Source: Polymorphobacter megasporae
GTDB lineage: Bacteria > Pseudomonadota > Alphaproteobacteria > Sphingomonadales > Sphingomonadaceae
Length of the DNA stretch: 64,000 nt
Assembly (NCBI RefSeq): GCF_018982885.2
Contig: NZ_CP081848.1
Location: 1,302,001 to 1,366,000 of the forward strand
Reading direction: 5' to 3'
Shown: piece by piece, positions 18,517-20,476 of the stretch
How positions within the stretch are numbered: the first letter of the stretch is position 1
Layout of the letters: every line of letters begins with the position of its first letter
The notes under the pieces: generated by a model
Databases searched by the model: none
What the model was told of the DNA's origin: nothing
Seen by the model: only the letters and a program-made list of their open reading frames with translations
Translations under genes and position numbers: made by a program

Positions 18517-19590
<1,074 letters not shown>

Positions 19591-19593
19591 CTA

Positions 19594-19642
19594 GAATCGC
19601 TGTGAGTCCCGGGCGAGTCCGCGTCAAGCTGCGAATGGAATC
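19594..19642 (-). promoter_or_regulatory. Cluster of four GANTC methylation sites in the ccrM upstream region
   Basis: GANTC sites begin at 19594, 19604, 19615 and 19638, i.e. 10, 11 and 23 bases apart, starting 22 bases upstream of the ccrM ATG (19572). A possible -35 hexamer TTGACG (minus strand, 19627-19622) lies among them. These are the substrate sites of the enzyme encoded just downstream, so self-control by methylation is likely. The 5-bp sites are certain; the regulatory role is inferred. Confidence 0.6.
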
Positions 19643-19741
19643 AGCGTGTTGCCGCGATGTTCTGAACTGCCGCTCGAAGCGCTATGGATTGAGTGCGCAG
19701 AATGCCCGACCCCCCACGGCTGGCGGTGTTGCCCGAAAGAC

Positions 19742-20359
19742 TCAGCCGCGCGCCGATTGCATCACCGCCGCGACGGGGGCGAAGCTGTAGCGGTGGTGCG
19801 CGGTCGCGCCGTGGCGCGCGAGCCCGGCGAAATGTTCGCGGGTCGAATAGCCCATGTTGGTCGCCCAGCCGTAATGCGGGTGCTCGGCGGCAAGCTCGGC
19901 CATCACCCTGTCGCGGGTGACCTTGGCGACGATCGAGGCGGCGGCGATCGACAGGCACAGCGCGTCGCCGCCGACGACAGTGGTCGTCGCGTGACCCCAT
20001 TTCGGGCTGCGGTTGCCGTCGACGAGGACGTGACGCGGGGCGAGCTTCAGCGCGGCGACCGCGCGCTCCATCGCCAGCATCGTTGCCCAGTAGATATTGA
20101 GGTGGTCGACCTCCTCGACCGAGGCGATGCCGACGCCGATCTCGGCGCAGTCGCGGAGCATCGCCAGCAGCGCTTCGCGGCGCGCGGCGGTCAGGACCTT
20201 CGAATCGTTGAGGCCTTCGGGGTAGCAGTCGGGGTCGAGCACGACCGCAGCAGCGACGACCGGCCCGGCAAGCGGCCCGCGCCCGGCCTCATCGACCCCG
20301 GCGCAGCGCGGGCCGTGGCGGGTTTCACGGGTAAGACAGGGGGAGGGGAGGGTCGGCAT
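19742..20359 (-). CDS. rnhB: Ribonuclease HII
   Basis: 205 residues. The catalytic Asp-Glu pair is in GVDEAGRGPLAGPV (about residue 22), a further Asp in HVLVDGN, and the late acidic region is around IAAASIVAKVTRDR. It removes RNA from RNA-DNA hybrids and misincorporated ribonucleotides. It lies 169 bases upstream of ccrM on the same strand. A 76-bp palindromic element sits just upstream of its start. Confidence 0.96.
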   Translation of the reverse strand: MPTLPSPCLTRETRHGPRCAGVDEAGRGPLAGPVVAAAVVLDPDCYPEGLNDSKVLTAARREALLAMLRDCAEIGVGIASVEEVDHLNIYWATMLAMERAVAALKLAPRHVLVDGNRSPKWGHATTTVVGGDALCLSIAAASIVAKVTRDRVMAELAAEHPHYGWATNMGYSTREHFAGLARHGATAHHRYSFAPVAAVMQSARG

Positions 20360-20400
20360 CGCGCCCTTCTACTCTGACTGTGATTCTCGCGAAACCTTGG

Positions 20401-20476
20401 TGTCATCCCCGCGTAAGCGGGGACCCAAGGTCACTACCCTCGGTGACTTTGGCTCCCCGCTTACGCGGGAATGACA
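20401..20476. repeat. Palindromic repeat element, copy 1 (intergenic)
   Basis: Two 33-bp arms (20401-20433 and 20444-20476) are inverted complements with three mismatches around a 10-base centre. Each arm also contains its own small hairpin: CCCCGC and GCGGGG around GTAA, or its complement. The element lies between the start of rnhB and the stop of thiD, touching the latter. It is homologous to copy 2 at 26646-26719. It could also act as a transcription terminator for thiD. Confidence 0.9.

Follow-up and report, generated by a model that had tools for sequence, protein, structure and literature searches.

The window analysed here, i.e. the whole 64-kb stretch of DNA, belongs to a host genome of 4.89 Mb in three contigs and carries on its minus strand the gene order glmM, a thiD-like kinase gene, rnhB and ccrM (Table 1). 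The methyltransferase gene is CcrM-like. Pfam analysis identified the N6_N4_Mtase (PF01555; 226.5 bits) and RAMA (71.2 bits) domains in its product, which is the only ccrM-like match in the genome and scores 595.8 bits with the NCBIfam CcrM model, i.e. below the model's own cut-off of 830. The closest named loci are those of a Polymorphobacter MAG (L007; 97% over residues 1-265) and of a lichen Sphingomonadaceae MAG (L002; 90%). An imperfect inverted repeat, ccccgcgtaagcggggac ... ccccgcttacgcgggaatgac, which looks like a dispersed repeat element, lies between the thiD-like gene and rnhB (window 20400-20476).

Table 1. Genes, predicted promoter elements, GANTC sites and NrdR-box-like palindromes of the ccrM region (window positions; offsets relative to the -35 hexamer)
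Feature	Position	Strand	Basis or remark
ccrM, GANTC adenine methyltransferase, 351 aa, GTG start 19572-19570	18517..19572	-	Pfam N6_N4_Mtase + RAMA
GANTC, offset +23, about -6 to -2	19594..19598	.	sequence; absent in L002, L007, L083
-10 element CACAGC (predicted, weak), 17-bp spacer from -35	19599..19604	-	family consensus CANNNT
GANTC, offset +13 = -16 to -12; last base = first base of -10	19604..19608	.	conserved
GANTC, offset +2, just past -35 hexamer	19615..19619	.	conserved, sliding
-35 hexamer TTGACG (predicted)	19622..19627	-	sequence + comparison
GANTC, offset -21, upstream of -35	19638..19642	.	at -19 to -21 in L002, L007, L083; further out, position more variable
NrdR-box-like palindrome, box B, promoter-proximal	19679..19694	.	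6.7 bits, genus-left-out matrix
NrdR-box-like palindrome, box A, distal	19711..19726	.	1.1 bits, genus-left-out matrix; 16-bp spacer to box B
fifth GANTC, overlaps rnhB stop	19739..19743	.	sequence
rnhB, ribonuclease HII, upstream of ccrM	19742..20359	-	NCBIfam NF000595 235.5 bits, cut-off 167

As the initial annotation had described, four GANTC sites lie within 49 bp directly upstream of ccrM (starts at 19594, 19604, 19615 and 19638; spacings of 10, 11 and 23 bp). Their clustering is indeed above chance, as random placement at the density of the window would yield 0.35 runs of four within 49 bp in a genome of 4.89 Mb. The window contains 98 GANTC sites, or 1 per 653 bp, against a dinucleotide-shuffle mean of 342, which corresponds to an approximately 3.5-fold depletion, and GANTC is reported to be rare across the alphaproteobacteria in general (PMC3973325). 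The ccrM cluster is the sole run of four GANTC within about 120 bp in the window. A pattern search of the whole genome revealed four runs of four sites within 63 bp (expectation 0.80), the others being located at C1:414867-414929 (63 bp), C1:900238-900293 (56 bp) and C2:118823-118869 (47 bp). The last of these (G000:C2:118823-118869; L245:1824-1870) is a second helically spaced run, with distances of 11, 10 and 21 bp; about 55 bp separate it from a downstream ORF of 170 aa, to which Pfam assigns no confident family. One other run is flanked by a DUF3576 gene and a gene without family assignment.

The comparison with relatives comprised 195 non-redundant ccrM upstream regions, 118 from Sphingomonadales (the order set) and 77 from other alphaproteobacterial families, one per family (the class set). 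For the class sample, in which matches were found in 176 of 241 genomes, 80 regions were taken, one per family; a further 20 loci came from another search. Exact duplicates (5 of 110 loci), near-identical regions (7 of 202) and regions in which the anchor motif was absent (3 of 100; L156, L163 and L208) were removed. A usable TTGAC, picked by the count of GANTC following it, was present in 105 of 105 loci, and the aligned profile was built from 93 loci, with the doubtful anchors L031, L040, L065, L088 and L091 and near-identical loci left out.

The TTGAC-aligned profile consists of CTTGAC[GC], a GANTC with a sliding start (0-5) and a GANTCA at +13. The offset of GANTC from the -35 hexamer peaks sharply at +13 (93 order and 32 class loci) against at most one locus in either set at +10 to +12. 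The motif TTGAC-N14-GANTC occurs in 92/118 order and 32/77 class loci, with shuffle means of 0.15 and 0.05, respectively. The sites are therefore largely conserved, and the possibility raised in the initial annotation that relatives lack them is not borne out. The +13 site is accompanied by a GANTC located 0-6 bases past the hexamer in 81/118 order and 25/77 class loci, and the two are spaced 7-13 bp apart in the core loci, mostly 10-12. The exact core is absent from 26/118 and 45/77 loci. At the conserved sites the G, A, T and C are kept and the middle base is free.

When the hexamer at a 17-bp spacer is read in the 124 core loci, it takes the form CANNNT; 121 of these loci have A at -11, and 66% have T at -7. 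These are the two most conserved positions of the sigma70 -10 element. An A is the next base after only 3 of 106 first sites and after 17 of 98 window sites on each strand; as it is uncommon after GANTC elsewhere, the second GANTC is placed at -16 to -12. The comparison shows the layout, i.e. TTGACS, a 17-bp spacer, CANNNT, a GANTC at -16 to -12 and usually a second GANTC after the -35, to be that of a sigma70-type promoter, as read from conservation. No description of the +13 GANTC layout was found in the mostly open-access literature searched on the ccrM promoter and GANTC.

In the window, the predicted transcription start lies near 19592 and the GTG start codon at 19572; the predicted -10 is devoid of T at -7, and the GANTC sites at 19615 and 19604 are inside the -35 to -10 region. 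In Caulobacter, the GANTC sites of ccrM are found in the leader. The initial annotation had drawn on this precedent, but the window sites are located upstream of and across the predicted start, within the core promoter and not in the transcribed leader. On the other hand, its proposal that the cluster is tied to ccrM control gains from the comparison, as the sites fall inside the predicted ccrM core promoter and the arrangement is found in relatives. Of the nearest relatives, L002 and L007 share the sites at -20/-21, +2 and +13, and L083 shares those at -19 and +13; the +23 site is absent from all three. Nor is the dense layout unusual, as had been thought: at least four GANTC within 49 bp are present in 35 of the 195 ccrM upstream regions. 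The cluster is thus a promoter architecture of a known control kind, not an odd phased array.

Based on these observations, we consider it likely that the GANTC cluster constitutes a methylation-sensitive ccrM core promoter, which would be read by GcrA together with sigma70 and would be subject to CcrM feedback and to an upstream NrdR-like input. GcrA is encoded in 29 of the 30 genomes searched, including the host genome. GcrA binds sigma2 and stimulates the opening of methylated promoters (PMC7403470), it prefers methylated GANTC (PMC3667746), and in Caulobacter the activation of starts that have a GANTC between -35 and -10 falls at 40-60 min of the cell cycle (PMC4287350). From the presence of GcrA and the Caulobacter literature we infer a GcrA-sigma70 promoter timed by the replication fork and damped by remethylation. 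GcrA carried by sigma70 would recognise the (hemi)methylated sites next to the weak -10 and would help to open the ccrM promoter after fork passage; full remethylation by CcrM would then lower its firing, which would amount to feedback of CcrM on its own gene, although the sign of this effect is only presumed. The NrdR-like box pair would add an input from the dATP/ATP-sensing regulator of ribonucleotide reductase. A GcrA 7-mer, YGAKTCG, has been published (PMC7987155); among the second sites of the 124 core loci, only 15 carry it in full, though 114 carry YGAKTC on either strand.

The arrangement resembles the GcrA/CcrM-controlled sigma70 promoters of Caulobacter mipZ, ctrA P1 and podJ P2, which have a GANTC between or beside the -35 and -10, and both GcrA and CcrM are encoded here. 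The published positions are -29/-28 for ctrA P1 and -24 for podJ P2 (PMC4287350). Unlike at those promoters, the target here is ccrM itself, each promoter has two to four sites, one of which keeps its place at -16 to -12 across many families of the class, and the action of GcrA is presumed. The motif TTGAC-N14-GANTC is little used elsewhere in the host genome, with 17 matches against 5 for the control, most of them inside or overlapping ORFs, which speaks against the proposed reading. One match (G000:C1:1502177-1502200; L132), TTGAC-N14-GAGTC, stands directly before a receiver-domain gene (C1:1501788-1502162; DivK-like by eye) and is possibly another methylation-controlled promoter.

The conserved GANTC at -16 to -12 might instead be plain sigma-recognition sequence, the methylation of which has no regulatory role. 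Its fixed distance from the -35 agrees with such an explanation, as does the judgement that some GANTC sites of Agrobacterium are possibly mere core-promoter parts for sigma binding (PMC11514494). However, we regard it as unlikely. The first site slides by several bases and yet remains GANTC, and the second keeps four fixed letters around a free middle base, which argues for a methylation site rather than a sigma contact. Moreover, extra GANTC sites are enriched around the core (3.28 and 3.22 per 190 bp, compared with 0.89 and 0.79 in shuffles), and the controlled gene encodes the GANTC methylase itself.

Another alternative is a Caulobacter-like negative feedback exerted through leader sites, with CtrA as the activator. 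Caulobacter provides the precedent, as CtrA activates ccrM there from hemimethylated DNA only (PMC2217572), and a CtrA homologue is encoded in the host genome (346.5 bits, just under the cut-off of 350 of the Rhodobacterales model); in addition, CtrA-like half-boxes occur in 29 of the 92 core loci of the order. As the initial annotation had noted, there is, however, no CtrA box around the window core (locus L001), i.e. neither GTTAACY nor TTAA-N7-TTAA, and the sites are in the promoter instead of the leader, which makes this alternative quite improbable. The counts for the core loci, which are no proper comparison, gave no pointer to an excess of GANTC in loci without a CtrA half-box. The promoter of the window resembles that of Caulobacter ccrM, which is itself most probably methylation-sensitive (PMC3973325), in that methylation of its own GANTC sites probably affects its control (PMC3973325, PMC2217572); it differs in that it has no box for CtrA, the known activator in Caulobacter, and has NrdR-like boxes upstream. 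An earlier survey of 37 genomes listed GANTC upstream of cell-cycle genes, ccrM included, from which methylation control was not derivable (PMC2877005).

Helical spacing for cooperative protein binding to phased GANTC, independent of promoter geometry, would account for the 10- and 11-bp spacings, which stand as near-whole turns, and for some 10.5-bp periodicity of the extra sites relative to the second site in the core loci (R 0.27), but it is very improbable, as the 23-bp spacing is out of phase (2.2 turns), the fourth site is not kept, the pair spacing ranges between 7 and 13 although the second site keeps a constant distance from the -35, and the 10.5-bp signal stems partly from conserved GANTC at -99/-98 and -80, at the NrdR-like boxes. 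Phasing as the organising principle of the sites was therefore rejected: pair spacing tracks promoter geometry, and the 10/11-bp distances arise because the second site is fixed to the -35 and the first slides.

Besides the proposed methylation-sensitive core promoter, the ccrM region contains a second putative element. When the order loci were searched for motifs upstream of the core, a 16-bp palindrome emerged, which is present as a pair. With a matrix trained without the genus of the window and its near relatives (genus-left-out matrix), the ccrM pair is the best in the window (7.8, next 1.3), and the pair upstream of the host's own nrdA, GCACTATCTGTAGCCG / ACACAAGCCGTGGTGG, 32 apart, scores 12.5. 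A de novo motif search of 30 nrdA upstream regions alone gave cCACaAgATcTtGTGg as the top solution; these were 30 of 39 ribonucleotide-reductase matches examined (40 genomes searched, 37 with a match). When the resulting nrdA matrix was applied to the window, the ccrM pair ranked 1 of 191,859 pair positions (8.1, next 5.6), a score that barely exceeds 7.8, the 99% shuffle level of ccrM loci. Of 25 genomes, 24 encode NrdR, among them the host genome (C1:3225774-3226193; 164.6 bits, cut-off 124.65), where the nrdR gene and the CtrA homologue are about 0.9 kb apart on opposite strands (G000:C1:3224212-3226193).

NrdR needs two boxes in helical register and binds best at spacers of 15-17 bp (PMC12051234). 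Taken together, the same motif at nrdA, the presence of NrdR and the two-box spacing lead us to read the palindromes as NrdR boxes; those of the window are probably NrdR boxes as well, degenerate here and strong in relatives. The strict pattern CWCWANATNTWGWG has no match in the host genome, hence the description of the window boxes as degenerate, and there is no GANTC inside them.

Six of the eleven same-family genomes with any match to CWCWANATNTWGWG have one at ccrM (G007, G009, G013, G020, G021 and G023). With the nrdA matrix, 111/118 order loci are above the 99% shuffle level, a count that includes pairs inside the rnhB coding sequence. The intergenic counts, for which the rnhB end was located by tblastn in 89 of the 118 order loci and a pair score of at least 7 was required, replace our counts of 108/118 loci and of 65/67/47 GANTC-bearing boxes, which were inflated by pairs in the rnhB coding sequence. 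An intergenic pair is present in 54/89 order loci, compared with 3/890 shuffles, and the nrdA matrix matched the same place in 53 of the 54. The spacings of these pairs are 31, 32 and 33 in 2, 13 and 39 loci, respectively. The remaining 35 of the 89 loci, those of Kordiimonad type included, have no intergenic pair; in some of them, such as L014 and L045, strong boxes fall before the script-located rnhB end. A group of pairs at 110-112 bp (Kordiimonad-type) was considered as a further helical step and rejected, as these lie inside the rnhB coding sequence where its end was located. The pairs of the class set are mostly of this rejected kind: of its 65 loci with rnhB located, only 3 have an intergenic pair, and thus the NrdR-like box element appears to be mainly one of Sphingomonadaceae.

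The distance from box B to TTGAC takes the values 37 (1 locus), 47 (1), 66-68 (8), 77-79 (36), 88-90 (5) and 98-99 (2), with none between. Six distance classes so well in phase occurred in 0.09% of simulations, in which the classes were set post hoc and the loci are related, so that the helically stepped box-to-promoter distance is suggestive only. Among the 54 pairs, 34 carry a GANTC at the inner end of box A and 39 at that of box B, 23 of them in both places, and none has one at an outer end; the nrdA pairs (n=19) have 0 inner and 2 outer GANTC. Two copies of a 16-bp palindrome, separated in most loci by 16-17 bp (published best 15-17 bp; PMC12051234), and the same motif upstream of nrdA in the genomes compared make the ccrM pair similar to the NrdR boxes of ribonucleotide reductase operons. 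In contrast to those boxes, the target is ccrM, the boxes are well upstream of the -35 at helically stepped distances, and their inner half-sites contain GANTC in many relatives. Two further observations concern similar sequences elsewhere. In one relative (L256; G037:C2:512652), a strong NrdR-like palindrome precedes an ORF resembling parE (by eye) by 90 bp. In G022, CACTACATCTAGTG occurs at 23 places, and the one copy examined (L277) is beside a transposase-like ORF (by eye); these copies are probably part of an insertion sequence.

In Pseudomonas aeruginosa, NrdR represses reductase genes and activates topA (PMC4409342). Boxes placed upstream of the -35 in helical steps would fit either activation through contact with RNA polymerase or repression through looping. 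We tentatively propose, as a possibility that we hold to be somewhat doubtful, that ccrM of Sphingomonadaceae belongs to the NrdR regulon, that the dATP/ATP-loaded NrdR tetramer may bind a box pair on one helix face relative to the ccrM promoter and that methylation of the inner-half-site GANTC by CcrM may gate this binding; the lineage of the window would then have kept degenerate boxes, with its methylation sites confined to the core promoter. The mostly open-access literature searched on NrdR with ccrM, DNA methylation or Caulobacter yielded no report that NrdR acts on ccrM; CcrM is unmentioned in the accessible part of PMC12186491, and ccrM is absent from the main text of a reconstruction of NrdR regulons (PMC5343134).

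CtrA is dispensable in several alphaproteobacteria, Sphingomonas melonis included (PMC8116508), and the timing of CcrM outside Caulobacter is for this reason largely open. A layout common to many families offers a concrete place where methylation could act. The link to NrdR is the part likely to surprise a specialist, as the NrdR-like boxes point to a direct route by which the supply of deoxynucleotides could act on DNA methylation. If real, these boxes would tie CcrM to DNA replication, and, should the proposed regulon membership be true, one promoter would respond to the nucleotide pool as well as to the methylation state of freshly copied DNA.
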